From a virus: a stretch of 25,330 bases of DNA. A program made the translations under genes and the position numbers. Where the stretch lies: the IMG/VR virus record IMGVR_UViG_3300024262_000219, positions 1 to 25,330 of that record; one strand, given 5' to 3'. The first letter of the stretch is position 1. The number at the start of each line of letters is the position of its first letter. Positions 5,646 to 25,330 of the stretch are shown here, piece by piece. The notes under the pieces are model-generated. The model did no database searches and was not told where the DNA came from. It saw nothing but the letters and a program-made list of their open reading frames with translations.

Positions 5646-5666
5646 GAGCCCATTGTGGCTCTTTAG
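5641..5666 (+). repeat. Intergenic hairpin element, copy 8
   Basis: CTAAGGAGCC pairs with GGCTCTTTAG around the loop CATTGT: a 10-bp stem with one G-U pair and a 6-nt loop. Followed by a 25-nt leader to the PRTRC E start. Confidence 0.75.
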
Positions 5667-5691
5667 TTATTATACACCTAAAATTATAAAT

Positions 5692-6831
5692 ATGTTTTTT
5701 AAAAGTATTGAACAACACTTAGTCGGTATGAATTTAAATATCGTAATCAGTAAAAATGAAACAGGATTGGTAGTATCTGTGTTTCCTCAACTTACTTGTA
5801 AGGATGAAGCGAAAGGTAATATTACTCCTATTTTATTAAAAGGTACGGCTGAAGAATTAGATGCACAGTTTGCAGGAATAATTCAACAACCGTTACAAAA
5901 AGTATCAGGAATATCTACAAATCTTATTCAATTTGAAAGAGCAGTAGAAAAAACAGAAGCAGATAATGCTATTACTAAGGCTAAGAAAGATGAATCTAAG
6001 AAACTTACTGATAAAGCAGATAAATTCTTAGATGAAGCAGACAAGCTAATTAAAGAAGATAAGATTCCTGCAGCAGTATTGAAAATTGAGGCAGCATTGA
6101 AAATTGCACCAGAGTACAAAAAGGCTCTTGATTTATTAGCTAAACATAAGGCAGAAACTGCTCCTGATATATTTGCAGTAGTTGAAGAAGTAAAGGCTGA
6201 TCCAATTATTGAAAAAGCTCAAGAAGAATTAGTTAAAACTGGTGAACCTCAAATAATTGATGAGGCCAATATATTAGTTCAAACAAATCAAGGTCCAGCA
6301 TTGGCAACTCCTGAAACTATTTCTCCTGAAAAACAAGAGAAAGTTGAAGCATTTGTTGCTCCTGTTGATGTTGTGGTTGCTCCAGTTGTTGTTCCCGTTG
6401 TTGCAGATATTATTCCAGAAGTTAAGCTTTACGATAACAATCCTGAAGGTATGAAGCCTACAATAGTAGAAAATATTGTAGTAGCGCCTCAAGTTAGTCA
6501 AATAACTTCAGATAATAAACCTGTTAGTTTAGCTGGAACTCCTAAGCCTACAAGAATGGATATGGAGCCTATGGAAGAATACATTATAAGATTAAACTCT
6601 TGGTTAGTATTCAATCCAGAAACTATAGCAGATAATCCTGCAGCAACTCAGCCAAGTGCTACTCCTATTGAAGAACCTAAATCGGATATGCAAGAAATGG
6701 CTGAGGAAGAACAAGTACAAAAGGAGATGAGGCATCAAGAAATGTTGCAACGTGAAAAGGATTTTAATGCAGAAGTTAAAGCTGAAGCTCCAATAGCTCC
6801 AGCAAGTAATAATATTGAAATATTAGGATAA
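5692..6831 (+). CDS. PRTRC system protein E
   Basis: 379 aa from the ATG at 5692; an in-frame upstream codon at 5653 lies inside the hairpin loop and is rejected. The N-terminus (MFFKSIEQHLVGMNLNIVIS, then VVSVFPQLT and LLKGTAEELDAQF) matches the PRTRC protein E start as I know it. Residues about 105-155 (DEADKLIKEDKIPAAVLKIE, AALKIAPEYKKALDLLAKHK) resemble a TPR-type helix pair. The middle is Pro/Val/Ala-rich (APVDVVVAPVVVPVVADIIP) and likely disordered; the C-terminus has a second helical patch (TRMDMEPMEEYIIRLNSWL) and an acidic coiled region. Family members are associated with PRTRC plasmid cassettes of unknown function. It is first in the operon and ends one base before the protein C start. 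Confidence 0.85.
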   Translation: MFFKSIEQHLVGMNLNIVISKNETGLVVSVFPQLTCKDEAKGNITPILLKGTAEELDAQFAGIIQQPLQKVSGISTNLIQFERAVEKTEADNAITKAKKDESKKLTDKADKFLDEADKLIKEDKIPAAVLKIEAALKIAPEYKKALDLLAKHKAETAPDIFAVVEEVKADPIIEKAQEELVKTGEPQIIDEANILVQTNQGPALATPETISPEKQEKVEAFVAPVDVVVAPVVVPVVADIIPEVKLYDNNPEGMKPTIVENIVVAPQVSQITSDNKPVSLAGTPKPTRMDMEPMEEYIIRLNSWLVFNPETIADNPAATQPSATPIEEPKSDMQEMAEEEQVQKEMRHQEMLQREKDFNAEVKAEAPIAPASNNIEILG

Positions 6832-11133: not shown

Positions 11134-11283
11134 ATGGCAGTAGATTTAAGATGCCCCGATTGTGGGGATAATTTCGGTAAGGACAAAGAAAATCCAACTA
11201 TCGTTTATTGTGAATGCGGATATAAAATTCATAATCCAGCAGGACATGATGATGATGAAGATGATGATGAAGATGAAGATTGA
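11134..11283 (+). CDS. Zinc-ribbon protein with poly-Asp/Glu tail (49 aa)
   Basis: MAVDLRCPDCGDNFGKDKEN, then VYCECGYKI and a tail of alternating Asp and Glu runs (residues 39-49). Cys7 and Cys10 with Cys26 and Cys28 form a small zinc ribbon (CPxC, CxC). The very acidic tail resembles nucleic-acid-mimic or histone-like-binding tails. The start follows a TTAAAATTAATGAT leader. It overlaps the ArdC-like start by 11 bases, so the two are translated together. Confidence 0.65.
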   Translation: MAVDLRCPDCGDNFGKDKENPTIVYCECGYKIHNPAGHDDDEDDDEDED

Positions 11284-12175
11284 AACATTTAAAAAGAAAG
11301 CTAAAATTGACGTATATCAACAGCTAACTGACAAGATAGTAGAAAAATTAGAACAAGGGGAAATCCCTTGGAAAAAACCTTGGAAATCCGTTCAATTCGG
11401 TTATCCTCAAAATTTTATAAGTAAGAAAGTATATAAAGGTTGTAACTTCTTTGAGGCATTACTTGAAGATAGAGCTACACCGTATTGGCTTACTTATAAT
11501 CAAGCTAAAGAACTTGGTGGAAATGTTAAGAAAGGAGAACGTGGTATTCCTATTGTCTATTTTCAATTCATTGAAAAGAAAGATAATAACGGAAACGATG
11601 TTAAATTTCCTATGATAAAGAAATCTACCGTATTCAATTTAGAACAGATTGAGGGTATTGTGAATCCCTTTGATGAAGAAAAGAAAAAGTTTGAAGAAGA
11701 AAATCTTATTGACTTCAATCCTATTGAGAGTTGTGAGGAACTATTATCTACATTTACAGATAAGGTAGCCTCATATTCTCATGATAATGGACAGAGAGCT
11801 TTTTATATGCCAGGAGCAGATACTATTACAATGCCCAATAAAGAATACTTTCATAAACCTGAAGGTTACTATTGTACATTGTTTCACGAAATGGCTCATT
11901 CAACTGGACATACAAGTAGATTAGATAGAGATGGAATCATTGGACATCATAAAAAAGGCAGTAAAGGATATGCTCGTGAAGAATTAGTAGCAGAGCTTAC
12001 CTCAGCATTCTTATGTAGTAAAGCAGGAATTGAAAATGATGTTGTAGATAACAATGTGGCTTATATTCAATCTTGGCTTGGAGCATTAAAGAATGATAAA
12101 ATGATAGTTTATGATGCAATGAAAGATGCATTTAAAGCTATTGAATATTTAGGAATCTTAAATGAAGCAGCATGA
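11273..12175 (+). CDS. ArdC-like antirestriction protein with metallopeptidase domain
   Basis: 300 aa from the ATG at 11273. An in-frame extension to 11162 is rejected because its residues are the shadow of the acidic zinc-ribbon tail (Met runs). The N-terminal ArdC-type domain shows DVYQQLTDKIVEKLEQGEIP followed by WKKPWK, TYNQAKELGGNVKKGERG and KSTVFNLEQIE. The C-terminal domain has HEMAH (205-209) in YCTLFHEMAHSTGHTSRLDR and a downstream Glu in REELVAELTS (about 236-243), a zincin-type site. ArdC proteins bind single-stranded DNA and protect entering DNA from restriction, which suits a phage early gene beside a methyltransferase. Overlaps at both ends by ATGA or similar. Confidence 0.88.
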   Translation: MKIETFKKKAKIDVYQQLTDKIVEKLEQGEIPWKKPWKSVQFGYPQNFISKKVYKGCNFFEALLEDRATPYWLTYNQAKELGGNVKKGERGIPIVYFQFIEKKDNNGNDVKFPMIKKSTVFNLEQIEGIVNPFDEEKKKFEEENLIDFNPIESCEELLSTFTDKVASYSHDNGQRAFYMPGADTITMPNKEYFHKPEGYYCTLFHEMAHSTGHTSRLDRDGIIGHHKKGSKGYAREELVAELTSAFLCSKAGIENDVVDNNVAYIQSWLGALKNDKMIVYDAMKDAFKAIEYLGILNEAA

Positions 12176-12638: not shown

Positions 12639-13001
12639 ATGAATAAAGATTATCCAAGAGTAATGCCAAGAGACTTATTCAACGAGTCTAAACTACTAAA
12701 ATGCATGGGGAGATTAATGTTGCTTATCCATGATGATTTAACGCCTAAAGGTGTTAAAATGGGATATGACGAACGTTATGAAGAACCATTTGAAATAGCT
12801 TTGATGGATGAAGGAGCTCTTACAATTACCAATCTTAAAATTAGTGTTCATAAAAGAATTATCACATTTAAAACAATTTATAATCGAAAGGATTTATACC
12901 CCTTATTTGCGGAATACGATTATGTTGATTATACAGTCTTTGATGATAATGGTAATTGGCACGAAGAATTTCTTGAATTATGTAATTTGCTTAAAAAGTA
13001 A
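12639..13001 (+). CDS. Conserved-type phage/mobile element protein (120 aa)
   Basis: MNKDYPRVMPRDLFNESKLL then KCMGRLMLLIHDDLTP, and a C-terminus with YDYVDYTVFDDNGNWHEEF. The MPRDLFNExKLLKCxGRLxLLIHD pattern is one I associate with a widely distributed, uncharacterised family in Bacteroidetes phages and plasmids. Function unknown. Its TAA overlaps the methyltransferase ATG (TAATG at 12999), so the two are coupled. Confidence 0.7.
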   Translation: MNKDYPRVMPRDLFNESKLLKCMGRLMLLIHDDLTPKGVKMGYDERYEEPFEIALMDEGALTITNLKISVHKRIITFKTIYNRKDLYPLFAEYDYVDYTVFDDNGNWHEEFLELCNLLKK

Positions 13002-14014
13002 TGGGTAAGATTTCCAAAGAAGCCATGAAACGCCATAGTAAGGCTATGGAAATAATAGAACAAGATGAATTATCTTATGATGATAAAATTTATGTTCTCG
13101 AAAACTATCATGAAGGAGCTACAAATATGAACAACTTAGTTAGTGCACACTTTACGCCAATGGAAATAGCAAGAAGCGTAGAGCAATGTGCAAGAAGTGA
13201 AAACTTTGTTGATTTATGTGCTGGTATTGGAGTATTATCTTGGTGCTTTCTTAGAATGCATCAATTTCAAAGTAATGAAATGAATATTACAGGAGTTTGT
13301 ATTGAGAATTGTGCCGAATATTATAGAATTGGTAAAAAGTTAATGCCAGAATTTCATTGGATAAATGGAGATATCTTTGACCCTCAAATTATTCAGCAAG
13401 TAAAGGATCTGATGAAAGGAAAAATATTTTCTATTATCTCAAATCCACCTTATGGAAAACAAGTAAAAACTGATACCAAAGAACTTCTTCAGTATAAAGG
13501 TCCTGAATTTGAATTTAAAGCTATCGAATTGGGTTATCTTCTTGGTGCTTATGATGGAGCATTTCTTATTCCTCAAGGCTCGTGTAACTTTAAAATGACT
13601 ACCGAGAGTAGGCATAATGAGTTTAATGTTCCTTGTGCTAAATATGAGAAGTTCTATAAAGAAACAGGTCTTGAAATGAGTCCTAATATGGGATATTCTA
13701 CGGAAGTACATGATGAAAACGGATGGAAAGATGTTTCTATCATTACTGAAATAGCAGTATTTGAATATGAAAAAATGAGAGATAATACTCCTGAAATCAT
13801 TAGTGATGAAGATTTTGAAACAGAAGAAGAGCGACTGTACAAAGAAAAGCATTTAGTGTGCAAAGCTGAACCTGGCTCTTTACAGGAAAAAGAAAATAAA
13901 TCTCAGATGAAGCATGATTTAATGTGGGAAAAACGACTACTTAAACTAAAAGAAGAAGTTAAAGCTGAAGAAGAGGCAGAAGACAATGAAGAAGGACAAT
14001 TAAGTTTATTCTAA
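13001..14014 (+). CDS. Solitary DNA adenine-type methyltransferase
   Basis: 337 aa. The SAM-binding motif I region FVDLCAGIGVLSW (residues 69-81) and the catalytic motif SNPPYGK (147-153) are clear, the NPPY form typical of N6-adenine or N4-cytosine methyltransferases. A helical N-terminus precedes HFTPMEIARSVEQC, another typical block (T-P, Q-x-C). The C-terminus is an acidic coiled region (KLKEEVKAEEEAEDNEE). No restriction endonuclease is adjacent, so it more likely protects phage DNA or controls expression. The N-terminal half is contiguous in one frame. Confidence 0.85.
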   Translation: MGKISKEAMKRHSKAMEIIEQDELSYDDKIYVLENYHEGATNMNNLVSAHFTPMEIARSVEQCARSENFVDLCAGIGVLSWCFLRMHQFQSNEMNITGVCIENCAEYYRIGKKLMPEFHWINGDIFDPQIIQQVKDLMKGKIFSIISNPPYGKQVKTDTKELLQYKGPEFEFKAIELGYLLGAYDGAFLIPQGSCNFKMTTESRHNEFNVPCAKYEKFYKETGLEMSPNMGYSTEVHDENGWKDVSIITEIAVFEYEKMRDNTPEIISDEDFETEEERLYKEKHLVCKAEPGSLQEKENKSQMKHDLMWEKRLLKLKEEVKAEEEAEDNEEGQLSLF

Positions 14015-15487: not shown

Positions 15488-15754
15488 ATGAGAAAGTATA
15501 GGCATAGTCTAATAGTCAATAAAATATCCAAAGAAACAGGATTAGACCGTAGGGTTGTACATTTAATCATTAGAAAATTCTATGATGGATTAAGAAAACT
15601 TATGATGCGTAATGAAGAGATTAATATAAAAGGGTTATTTACCCTTAAATTAAGCTCTCACTATAAACGTAAAGTTGAAAAAGAAGGTAAAGATGTTAAT
15701 CTTAGAAAGCGTAAAAATCAAAAATACACTTACATTAAAAAAGGGAAGAGCTAA
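15488..15754 (+). CDS. HU/IHF-like DNA-binding protein
   Basis: 88 aa, strongly basic (C-terminus KGKDVNLRKRKNQKYTYIKK). KYRHSLIVNKISKETGLDRR then VVHLIIRKFYDGLRKLMMRN and EEINIKGLFTLKL fit the helix-turn-helix start and the I-x-I-x-G-L/F-F segment of HU family proteins, though the usual GRNP arm motif is not clear. It would bend or compact DNA during replication. Starts three bases after the helicase stop, so it is in the same operon. Confidence 0.7.
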   Translation: MRKYRHSLIVNKISKETGLDRRVVHLIIRKFYDGLRKLMMRNEEINIKGLFTLKLSSHYKRKVEKEGKDVNLRKRKNQKYTYIKKGKS

Positions 15755-22996: not shown

Positions 22997-23380
22997 TTAT
23001 TTTAATAATAATACAGCAACAGCACCAATGACCACGCCCCCCACACCAAATAACTTAATATTGCGAACAGCACTAAACAATCTAAGGTTAATTTCTTGAT
23101 TTTCATCTTCAAGTTTAGCAATAGTGATTTCATCATCTTTAAGAATAGTGTCTTGGTTTTTAATAACAGTCTTAAAATTAAATATTTGAAGACCATAATT
23201 CGATATTATACTATCTTTAGTAGCTTGTGCTCTAATGCATGTAATGGCTTTAATGTCCATTGCATCTGTATAACAGATACAACTATCTGAATGTTGCTGC
23301 CCTAATGCTATCTCTGTAGTTCCTACTTGTATTAGCAATAAAAACACTATCAGCCGGAATACCTTTTTTAAGTCTTTCAT
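22997..23380 (-). CDS. Exported protein with C-terminal TM (spanin-like topology)
   Basis: 127 aa. The N-terminus (KKVFRLIVFLLLIQVGTTEI, residues 5-24) is a signal sequence, the middle is helical and charged (LKDDEITIAKLEDENQEINL), and the C-terminus LFGVGGVVIGAVAVLLLK is a membrane helix. Cys pair at SCICYTD. This is the layout of unimolecular spanins (secreted N-terminus, periplasmic helix, inner-membrane C-terminal TM), but no clear lipobox is seen, so it is not a standard u-spanin. It overlaps the next gene by 98 bases in another frame. A tail or envelope protein is the alternative. Confidence 0.55.
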   Translation of the reverse strand: MKDLKKVFRLIVFLLLIQVGTTEIALGQQHSDSCICYTDAMDIKAITCIRAQATKDSIISNYGLQIFNFKTVIKNQDTILKDDEITIAKLEDENQEINLRLFSAVRNIKLFGVGGVVIGAVAVLLLK

Positions 23381-23609
23381 TATCTTTTTCTATTACTTCA
23401 TTATCTATTAATAAATCTTTATTCTCTTGCTTTAACCTATCATGCTTTATCATCATTTGCACCGCTTCGAGGCTATACGTTTTTTCTGCAGGAAAGAATG
23501 TGTCTTTAACATTCTTGAATACACTCGATAAAGAAACTAATGATAGTAACCCTATTACGATATATATTAAAACCTTACTCTGGAGCATCTTTCTTTTTAA
23601 ATATTCCAC
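23283..23609 (-). CDS. Membrane-anchored coiled coil (i-spanin-like)
   Basis: 108 aa: KSKVLIYIVIGLLSLVSLSS-type N-terminal TM (residues about 11-30), then coiled-coil heptads in IKHDRLKQENKDLLIDNEVI and EKDNERLKKG. This is the usual layout of inner-membrane spanins (Rz-like). It overlaps the downstream secreted gene (22997-23380) by 98 bases in a different frame, which is also how Rz/Rz1 pairs are arranged, and the upstream holin-like gene by 35 bases. Function inferred from topology and context. Confidence 0.55.
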   Translation of the reverse strand: MEYLKRKMLQSKVLIYIVIGLLSLVSLSSVFKNVKDTFFPAEKTYSLEAVQMMIKHDRLKQENKDLLIDNEVIEKDNERLKKGIPADSVFIANTSRNYRDSIRAATFR

Positions 23610-23805
23610 TTACAACTCTAAGCCCAAGTAATGTACATCCAGCTATAAGCATTGAATTAAACAAATTTTCATTTGCAGTATAAAATGCTATACCATCTAA
23701 CACGAATGTAATACACACTAAAAACATAATGATAAACCCCCAAAATTTCTTTGAGGAATATTTACCACCAGTCTTATCTCTAAATTGATCACTCCAAAAT
23801 CCCAT
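23575..23805 (-). CDS. Holin-like two-TM protein (76 aa)
   Basis: MGFWSDQFRDKTGGKYSSKK, then two hydrophobic helices (FWGFIIMFLVCITFVLDGIA and FNSMLIAGCTLLGLRVVSGI) and a charged C-terminus FKKKDAPE. Two TM helices, short loops and a basic tail fit a class II holin. It lies next to spanin-like genes, which supports a lysis cassette; no endolysin is visible nearby. Confidence 0.6.
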   Translation of the reverse strand: MGFWSDQFRDKTGGKYSSKKFWGFIIMFLVCITFVLDGIAFYTANENLFNSMLIAGCTLLGLRVVSGIFKKKDAPE

Positions 23806-23807
23806 AA

Positions 23808-23975
23808 TTAAAAAGTATTTCTATAAGTAGGTTTTGATTTCTTAACCTTAATAGCTTTAGTCGCTTTAGCTTTGTTTTTTACAGTAGGCTTAGCTTTTGC
23901 TTTAGCAATAGCTTTATCCGCAGTTTTAACACGCTTAGAAGCTGGAGTAGTCTTTTTAGTTGTTCCGTAAACCAT
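23808..23975 (-). CDS. Lys/Ala-rich histone H1-like small protein (55 aa)
   Basis: MVYGTTKKTTPASKRVKTAD, then KAIAKAKAKPTVKNKAKATK, ending KPTYRNTF. Almost half Lys and Ala with KAKAKP-type repeats like the tails of histone H1-like bacterial proteins, so probably a DNA- or RNA-binding, disordered protein. Read directly from the complementary strand: CAT at 23973-23975 and TTA at 23808-23810. Its stop is two bases from the next start, so it is in the same operon. Confidence 0.7.
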   Translation of the reverse strand: MVYGTTKKTTPASKRVKTADKAIAKAKAKPTVKNKAKATKAIKVKKSKPTYRNTF

Positions 23976-23977
23976 AA

Positions 23978-24211
23978 CTATTTAGTTTTAAAAACTCTAT
24001 GAGTACCACCAGAAATAGCCTTAGCTTTAGAAGTTCCTGAAGGAGAAAAAGATTTCTTATCAGCAGTTGCATAGCTCTTCTCTTGCTTTCTATTAGCAGC
24101 AATAGAATTACCTTTTAATTGACGAGCTCTATCAGAAGCAACATCAGGACCTTGACCAGTTTTACTTCTACCTTTAGCAGCTCTTGATTTATTATTGTTG
24201 CCTGTAGTCAT
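23978..24211 (-). CDS. Small basic disordered protein (77 aa)
   Basis: MTTGNNNKSRAAKGRSKTGQ, ARQLKGNSIAANRKQEKSYA, ending GGTHRVFKTK. Basic and rich in Gly, Ser, Asn and Lys with no hydrophobic core, so disordered. It starts two bases upstream of the start of a similar basic gene and is the second of three basic genes in a row. Confidence 0.65.
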   Translation of the reverse strand: MTTGNNNKSRAAKGRSKTGQGPDVASDRARQLKGNSIAANRKQEKSYATADKKSFSPSGTSKAKAISGGTHRVFKTK

Positions 24212-24213
24212 AA

Positions 24214-24405
24214 TTAGTTAGATTGAGGTCTGTAATTAGTTGAATTACTTCTTGAACTCTTATTAGTTGACTCTAACGGTGGAGTAACTGGAGTTCTTTT
24301 GTTTGTACTCATTACTTTAGGAGTACCACTTGATTTAGCTTTTTTCCCCATTTGACTTGAAAACATTTTTGGATTTTTCATTTTATTTACTTTTAAGTTA
24401 TTCAA
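24214..24405 (-). CDS. Small basic Ser/Thr/Pro-rich protein (63 or 55 aa)
   Basis: Read from M1 it starts MNNLKVNKMKNPKMFSSQMG; the second Met (24381) is also a good start. Basic, with KRTPVTPPLE and a Ser/Asn-rich tail (SNSTNYRPQSN). No fold is predicted. Third of the consecutive basic genes, two bases before the next. Possible nucleic-acid-binding or virion-internal protein; unproven. Confidence 0.55.
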   Translation of the reverse strand: MNNLKVNKMKNPKMFSSQMGKKAKSSGTPKVMSTNKRTPVTPPLESTNKSSRSNSTNYRPQSN

Positions 24406-24415
24406 ATATAGTTAA

Positions 24416-24826
24416 TTATTTCTTTTGTTGAGCCTCAAGCATTCCTACAATCTTATTCAGATTACTATTAATTTCTTTGAACTCACTTTGTACTACTGAT
24501 TTATGTTCCTTAATATCATCTTGTGTTTTATCTATTCTAAGGTTTGCAACATCAAATTTTTCACCTACCAAGTGTATCAATTCTTTTTTAATTGCATGCC
24601 TACCCATTTTAGATGAGGTATTCTCTATTTTAAGGATCTCTAATTCTTTATCAAATTCTTTCTGCATATTTTCAAATTTTACTTGAGTTGAATCTTTATG
24701 AGCATTAAAGGAAAACTTTAAGGTCAAATAAGCAGTAGCAAGAGATACAATTCCACCAACCAACATAATAGTGTCTTTTACATTAAAGACCACATCCATC
24801 CCATTAACAACGTCAAGTAACACCAT
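24416..24826 (-). CDS. Membrane protein with coiled coil (136 aa)
   Basis: N-terminal TM in DTIMLVGGIVSLATAYLTLK (residues about 18-37), then long heptad-rich helical regions (KFENMQKEFDKELEILKIEN, KSVVQSEFKEINSNLNKIVG) to the end. The layout fits a holin-associated or XhlA-like membrane protein, or an inner-membrane spanin. It lies upstream of the basic genes in the minus operon. Confidence 0.55.
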   Translation of the reverse strand: MVLLDVVNGMDVVFNVKDTIMLVGGIVSLATAYLTLKFSFNAHKDSTQVKFENMQKEFDKELEILKIENTSSKMGRHAIKKELIHLVGEKFDVANLRIDKTQDDIKEHKSVVQSEFKEINSNLNKIVGMLEAQQKK

Positions 24827-24831
24827 ATTTA

Positions 24832-25137
24832 TTACATCTTAAGTTTATCTAAATATTCATCAAAAGCAACAATATCCTTATGCATCATTGTCCAGTTTAT
24901 AATTCTACAATCATAAGCTACAGTAAATTCAGCATCCTCTAATTCAACTGTCTTTCCTAATTTAACTTTTTCAATCTTTGCTATTACATTAAATCTCTCT
25001 TTCATTTGAGCTGTAGTCCAACCTTCTTTTGGTGGAGCATTCAGTCCTAATAACAATAAGTCAACATAACCCATTTTTACTTTTTTCGCATCTACTAATT
25101 TTGTTAATTCTGTTTCTTTGTTCTCTAACTTTTTCAT
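24832..25137 (-). CDS. Unknown soluble protein (101 aa)
   Basis: MKKLENKETELTKLVDAKKV, GYVDLLLLGLNAPPKEGWTT, AQMKERFNVIAKIEKVKLGK, ending VAFDEYLDKLKM. A small helical protein whose N-terminal segment contains a PKEGWTTAQMKERF block typical of small DNA- or protein-binding folds. It begins 11 bases after the end of the partial upstream gene and ends five bases before the coiled-coil gene. Confidence 0.65.
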   Translation of the reverse strand: MKKLENKETELTKLVDAKKVKMGYVDLLLLGLNAPPKEGWTTAQMKERFNVIAKIEKVKLGKTVELEDAEFTVAYDCRIINWTMMHKDIVAFDEYLDKLKM

Positions 25138-25148
25138 TTTCTTTTTCT

Positions 25149-25330
25149 TTAGTTATAATTATAAAATTTCTTTCCAAATATACGAACTGCTATGAAATAA
25201 ATAAAGGCCCAAAACTGAAAATATACCCTTCTAAACCATCCTGTTAGATTCATAGTGTCTTTCAGCATCATTATCAGGAACTTACCGTCACACTCAAATC
25301 TTTTCGCTTCATCTCCTCCTAACTCGTACC
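25149..25330 (-). CDS. Partial gene: C-terminus of a membrane-like protein
   Basis: An open frame runs from the right edge to a stop at 25149-25151. The visible residues YELGGDEAKRFECDGKFLIM and MNLTGWFRRVYFQFWAF, then IYFIAVRIFGKKFYNYN, make a hydrophobic, Arg/Lys-flanked C-terminal helix. Its start is outside the window. A TATATTTG on the same strand at 25175-25182 falls inside this frame, so it should not be read as a promoter without other evidence. Confidence 0.6.
   Translation of the reverse strand, partial: YELGGDEAKRFECDGKFLIMMLKDTMNLTGWFRRVYFQFWAFIYFIAVRIFGKKFYNYN

Follow-up and report, generated by a model that had tools for sequence, protein, structure and literature searches.

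What might three consecutive, very basic reading frames contribute to a phage when they lie beside its presumed lysis genes? The window analysed here covers all 25,330 bases of a virus record (IMG/VR IMGVR_UViG_3300024262_000219), itself probably a fragment, since one gene is cut at the right-hand end. The original prediction placed the three frames at nt 23808–23975, 23978–24211 and 24214–24405, separated by two-base gaps, and described them as a tandem set of disordered, histone H1-like proteins. All three are present at these positions, on the minus strand. The third (P0003) is transcribed first, followed by the second (P0002) and the first (P0001), and another two-base gap separates P0001 from the next gene (Table 1).

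Genome setting and the putative lysis cassette

The plus strand of the window carries a replication module specifying a DnaB-like helicase, Sak4-like and exonuclease VIII-like proteins, an anti-restriction protein and a DNA methyltransferase. The last two (PHROG 7245 and PHROG 3820) are encoded close to each other, at nt 11162–12175 and 13001–14014 (plus strand). An HU-like DNA-binding protein (nt 15488–15754, plus strand; PF00216, 27.1 bits against a cut-off of 22.4) is specified directly after the DnaB gene. The N-terminal part of a 392 aa protein (nt 5653–6831, plus strand) matches PRTRC system protein E (PF19556, E = 2.7e-30). PRTRC genes are known from plasmids and chromosomes, and a phage copy of a gene of this type deserves attention. 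Scans of the window for Rfam families and tRNAs both came back empty.

A run of minus-strand genes (nt 25330 to 22754) converges with this module, and the stem-loop at the junction is likely to be a bidirectional terminator between the replication and late modules. The order of transcription is a truncated phospholipase A2-like gene, a 101 aa gene, a 136 aa gene with a transmembrane (TM) segment and coil, P0003, P0002, P0001, a 76 aa gene with two TM segments, a 108 aa gene with one, a 127 aa gene that overlaps it by 98 bases, and a 78 aa gene. Stop-codon recoding has been reported for late genes of crAss-like phages (PMC10136315) and was considered here since P0002 ends in TAG. Among the 47 open reading frames that we took to be likely genes of the window, TAA is used 28 times, TGA 10 times and TAG nine times; the standard code therefore fits.

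Table 1. Features of the late operon and its junction with the replication module (window coordinates).
Feature	Position (nt)	Strand	Description
Stem-loop	22691–22725		14 pairs, T runs on both strands; replication/late module junction
Overlapping partner	22997–23380	-	127 aa; signal-like N-terminus, C-terminal TM; 98-base overlap; 44% identical to L002 counterpart
i-Spanin-like gene	23283–23609	-	108 aa; one N-terminal TM (13–31), charged tail
Holin-like gene	23575–23805	-	76 aa; two TM segments; named from topology and synteny
P0001	23808–23975	-	55 aa; Lys/Ala-rich; C-terminal TYRNTF; modelled as two helices
P0002	23978–24211	-	77 aa; Lys/Arg/Ser/Gly-rich; no homologue detected
P0003	24214–24381	-	55 aa; Lys/Ser/Thr-rich with an RPQ motif at the C-terminus; transcribed before the other two basic genes
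TM-coil gene	24416–24826	-	136 aa; N-terminal TM segment, charged coil-like tail
Late-operon protein	24832–25137	-	101 aa; conserved
Cut gene, 3' part	25149–25328	-	At contig end; homologous to L002:6720–7004

Related loci were collected through the 76 aa neighbour (11 loci) and through its alignment (one, L021), giving 12 distinct contigs. Two of these (L012 and L021) are cut at the 76 aa-type gene and thus uninformative, leaving ten. The locus L002, part of a 71 kb record (G001), appears to be a true syntenic relative of the window, with 61% identity in the exonuclease VIII-like protein, 58% in the Sak4-like protein, 34% in the TM-coil protein and 44% in the 127 aa protein. The window itself lacks a structural module. 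Signature structural proteins of the Crassvirales were seen instead in G001, where the late module encodes a terminase and a portal protein of PHROG families 6681 and 6547 and a match to Pfam CrAss_Ring_2 (E = 3.5e-27). The G001 terminase matches 108 phage records; the 30 matches listed show 22–25% identity and include ProJPt-Bp1, cr130_1 and cr115_1, assigned by their records to the Crassvirales, and FpV4, assigned to Fipvunavirus. Because its syntenic relative carries these terminase, portal and ring protein matches, the window phage is taken, through that relative, to be distantly crAss-like. A host among the Bacteroidota is presumed from this kinship only; the holin-like and i-spanin-like alignments, used in two scans of genome contigs, turned up no relative.

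Family matches of the holin-like and spanin-like genes are weak or sub-threshold only, and it is the gene content of the relatives that points to lysis. Five of the ten informative relatives have, immediately ahead of the 76 aa-type gene, one that encodes a DUF5675 protein (L003) or a protein of Peptidase M15 type (L004, L006, L007 and L008, the match in L007 being below Pfam's cut-off). L010 has a different ORF there and a peptidoglycan-binding amidase gene after the 76 aa-type gene, and by eye L009 and L011 have no clear same-strand gene before it. A further locus (L032), found through the 108 aa gene, combines a TM-coil gene, a 58 aa ORF, a Peptidase M15 gene, an i-spanin-like gene and its partner, with no basic gene. 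The TM-coil protein of L032 is 44% identical to that of the window, and L005 has a 94 aa ORF at this position. Since sister phages carry Peptidase M15-type or DUF5675 genes at this place, the operon containing the basic genes is assigned by synteny as a lysis cassette, which supports the earlier placement of the three frames next to lysis genes. No o-spanin lipobox was found in the cassettes of the window, L002 or L005 with a limited pattern, which missed an LFSC site seen by eye in L004 and was applied to some short stretches.

A small late gene with a C-x-x-HD motif is found at the end of the window (nt 25149–25328) and in three other loci (L002:6720–7004, L005:873–1235 and L025:9160–9588). 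The motif of the L002 protein is one that we take to be phospholipase A2-like. That protein matches PHROG 6098 (E = 1.7e-10) and, below the cut-off, prokaryotic phospholipase A2 (E = 0.023); the L005 protein weakly matches PHROG 6098 (E = 0.011) and the L025 protein DUF1353 (E = 0.0005, below the cut-off). An envelope enzyme encoded near the lysis genes is a possible reading of this gene.

Conservation and distribution of the basic genes

Short, low-complexity frames with no database match might be chance frames and not genes, above all P0002. First-order Markov simulations of the window (n = 300) were searched in six frames for ATG-initiated ORFs of 40–120 aa under the same composition cut; they contained a mean of 0.003 such ORFs each, and none of the 300 reached three. 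The observation of three basic ORFs is right and better than chance. P0003 was listed from a TTG at nt 24405 (63 aa), and by eye the ATG at nt 24381, which has an A-rich leader and gives 55 aa, is the more likely start.

Basic ORFs directly precede the 76 aa-type gene in two of the ten informative relatives, L002 and L005 (the latter in the 10.6 kb record G004), and none was seen in the other eight. L002 has one P0003-type gene (L002:7865–7999), and L005 has a P0003-type gene (L005:1568–1696) followed by a P0001-type gene (L005:1698–1886). Profile searches recover their own input rows by construction, so the independent proof of homology is a comparison with composition-keeping shuffles: z-scores were 8.3 (P0003 with L005), 5.8 (P0003 with L002) and 6.5 (P0001 with L005), each reached by 0 of 2000 shuffles. 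The three aligned P0003-family proteins share 11 invariant residues, every one in the second half, and the C-terminal tails of the two families (RPQ-x-x and TY-K/R-N-x-F) are conserved. In the window, L002 and L005 alike, the basic genes and the holin-like gene are spaced by one to two bases, and the order P0003-type, P0001-type, holin-like is identical in window and L005, as is the position. By these alignments, P0001 and P0003 are shown as families conserved in syntenic relatives, P0003 in the two closest and P0001 in one. Intact frames at syntenic positions (for P0001 and P0003), the regular spacing and the simulations all speak against chance frames, which we regard as very improbable; the three look like genuine genes belonging to a small lineage of phages.

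P0002, called a gene from position and composition alone, is an orphan in this analysis: it matched only itself in 17 records and had no match in 50,697 phage records (BLAST low-complexity filter on). Nothing was found in the same 50,697 records for P0003 or the 76 aa and 101 aa proteins. When viral contigs were scanned directly, P0002, P0003 and the P0003- and P0001-family alignments yielded nothing confirmed; the scans with P0003 and the two alignments missed even the L002 and L005 homologues, probably because tblastn confirmation fails on short biased proteins, and so do not show absence.

The frames are adjacent in tandem, as first described, but no kinship between them was detected: pairwise scores among P0001, P0002 and P0003 were within those of shuffles (reached by 315 to 1022 of 2000). 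A common T-Y/H-R look of their C-termini, noticed by eye, was likewise unsupported in this test. There are three basic genes in the window, one in L002 and two in L005, representing two conserved families and one orphan. Since the relatives carry only one or two, the triplet is not a conserved unit.

The composition cut was applied to ten records (the window, G001–G007, G012 and L032) and returned seven ORFs, three in the window and two each in G004 and G001; the other seven records had none. The pair in G001 consists of the P0003-type gene and a 49 aa ORF. This very basic ORF (G001:66559–66708, minus strand; also L036:6559–6708) lies two genes upstream of the terminase gene. A slightly looser cut was used on six named genomes, FpV4, crAss001 (minus the last 2.7 kb), ProJPt-Bp1, cr130_1, cr115_1 and phi14:2 (minus 418 bases), and on four loci (L009, L011, L025 and L027). 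It gave four ORFs of 30–42 aa, three of which overlap larger annotated genes, the remaining one being an annotated small gene away from lysis genes. The idea that basic pairs or triplets recur in other phages thus found no example in the six crAss-like or related genomes, two of them slightly incomplete, and in this sample they are not a general crAss-like feature. Literature searches on crAss-like lysis cassettes, crAss001 virion proteins, disruptins and phage proteins that are small and basic, disordered, histone-like or protamine-like gave, among the matches listed, no description of such genes in a lysis cassette, and the main text of the crAss001 structure paper (PMC10172136) does not mention 'disordered', 'basic' or 'positively charged'.

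Composition, models and family searches

Lysine and arginine make up 33% of P0001, 23% of P0002 and 20% of P0003, the strongly hydrophobic residues (V, I, L, M, F, W and C) 15%, 10% and 15%, and the net charges are +17, +14 and +10. Relative to the Uversky boundary all three are on the unfolded side, and for charge-driven disorder they rank 1–3 among the 47 likely genes. They had been described as uniformly Lys/Ser/Thr-rich and disordered. Both terms suit P0003, the AlphaFold2 model of which (pTM 0.14, from three sequences) is free of secondary structure. P0001 is Lys/Ala/Thr-rich instead, and disorder is doubtful for it, as it is modelled as two helices (block pLDDT 76–89, pTM 0.49, two sequences only); the alignments behind both models are very shallow. 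The hydrophobic moments of the P0001 helices (0.34 and 0.10) were reached by 22% and 90% of shuffles, and their mean hydrophobicity is negative. Neither model contains an amphipathic helix. The best 18-mer of P0002 has a moment of 0.39, calculated from sequence.

Profiles of P0001 and P0003 matched no solved structure, and a Foldseek search of the PDB with the P0001 model returned 24 matches, the best at E = 0.79 and none at 0.001. Seven basic proteins from the window and related phages had no Pfam match at E up to 10, six had no NCBIfam histone match at the same limit, and five had no match to PHROGs; HMMER filters may discard very weak matches in such searches. The sole NCBIfam match among the six was of L005:1698–1886 to carboxysome protein CsoS2 (E = 0.12, sub-threshold). 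The likeness to histone H1 is thus one of composition only, with no histone or Hc1 family match, and as a statement of family membership the label is unsupported by these searches. Packaging with DNA, or its condensation late in infection, as first suggested, would be possible functions.

Possible functions and comparison with known systems

Our preferred reading, held tentatively, is that P0001–P0003 are lineage-specific late polycations that bind a polyanion, most plausibly nucleic acid. They would be accessory genes of the lysis operon of an environmental, distantly crAss-like phage, placed just before the holin-like gene and expressed late along with the operon, and their products would act by charge. 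The likeliest target would be RNA or the DNA of host or phage, bound at a late stage of infection, whether or not the proteins enter the virion. Polycations that lack an apolar face most simply bind polyanions, and the modelled P0001 helices, having no amphipathic face, would suit nucleic-acid binding better than membrane insertion; we thus consider nucleic acid a more likely target than the outer membrane. Consistent with this reading are the two-base-gap tandem within a single minus-strand run that ends at a terminator-like stem-loop, the same-position homologues in L002 and L005, the high charge combined with few strongly hydrophobic residues, and the further 49 aa basic ORF of G001 near the terminase gene. 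Against it, no family or solved-structure match ties the basic proteins to nucleic-acid binding, the HU-like gene already offers a conventional DNA-binding protein, and the position of the basic genes, taken up in five sisters by a Peptidase M15-type or DUF5675 gene, points equally to lysis.

That position would suit lysis factors, cationic proteins that would be freed once the holin-like protein had breached the inner membrane and would then, like disruptins, destabilise the outer membrane with its negative charge. Cationic peptides serve some phages that lack recognisable spanins (PMC12819732), and the window, L002 and L005 yielded no o-spanin with a lipobox by the limited pattern. The disruptin archetype (PhiKT) is described as an amphipathic helix (PMC12819732), and a disruptin-like role is weakened because the P0001 helices are not amphipathic, with moments no better than shuffles, and P0003 is modelled free of helix. 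An i-spanin-like gene is also present, and eight cassettes in which the limited pattern detected no lipobox protein (L004, L006–L011 and L032) have no basic genes either, so these genes do not track a missing o-spanin. We consider this role unlikely. A rather more elaborate form of it, in which a crAss-like lineage without a recognisable o-spanin lipoprotein finishes lysis with a variable set of polycations, unrelated to each other and non-amphipathic, whose genes lie just before that of the holin, is a long shot. Such proteins would strip cations from the outer membrane, or would condense or free nucleic acid at lysis. We know of no described counterpart to a multi-component lysis accessory of that sort.

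The confinement of the 11 invariant P0003-family residues to the second half, and the running on of the operon from the structural module in G001, would suit flexible basic peptides whose conserved C-terminal tails attach them to a component of the capsid or tail. We doubt that the proteins are minor virion or assembly components of this kind, given that their genes lie beyond the structural genes, within the lysis cassette, and that no ORF of this type emerged from the composition survey in crAss001 or in phi14:2, the record of which marks proteins detected by MS/MS. About equally doubtful is a reading as accessory genes of rapid turnover that came by chance to occupy an insertion site and serve some other purpose, such as host takeover or effects on superinfection or translation. 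The varying copy number (three, one and two), the orphan status of P0002 and the lack of such genes in the other eight informative relatives fit that idea, but the position and order kept in the window and L005 argue for a linked role.

P0001–P0003 would, as polycations, be small new families of a familiar kind. In our judgement, the outer-membrane step of lysis has been little studied, and if active in lysis the three would name new players in it. As virion components they would represent a new DNA-associated cargo, and if neither, they are ordinary fast-evolving accessory genes. The contrast at one position, where three phages have basic genes and five sisters have Peptidase M15-type or DUF5675 genes, would let the question be put to the test by gene deletion in a relative that is in culture.

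Among known systems, four moraphages are reported to encode an Hc1-type protein (PF07432; PMC12619734). P0001–P0003 resemble histone H1 and Hc1-type proteins in being small, Lys-rich (P0001 Lys/Ala-rich) and poor in hydrophobic residues, but match no linker histone, Hc1 or HC2 family (E up to 10), and the window phage has a separate HU-like gene. With disruptins they share short length, cationic character, a location in a likely lysis region and a host presumed to be Gram-negative; they differ in the lack of an amphipathic helix in the P0001 and P0003 models and in the i-spanin-like gene of their cassette. Two-component spanins comprise an o-spanin, an outer-membrane lipoprotein with a lipobox, and an i-spanin with an N-terminal TM segment, and overlap of the i-spanin gene with its partner is one of three described architectures (PMC6139136). 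The 108 aa gene of the window, with its single N-terminal TM segment and 98-base overlap, is of this form, but its partner has no lipobox by the limited pattern. With the partner's C-terminal TM segment, the pair at nt 22997–23609 is unlike the two spanin types set out in the part of PMC6139136 consulted. Finally, the six named genomes have no such basic ORFs by their lysis genes, in contrast to the window, and the likeness to the Crassvirales and Flavobacterium phage FpV4 lies in the terminase, portal and ring protein 2 matches of its relative G001.
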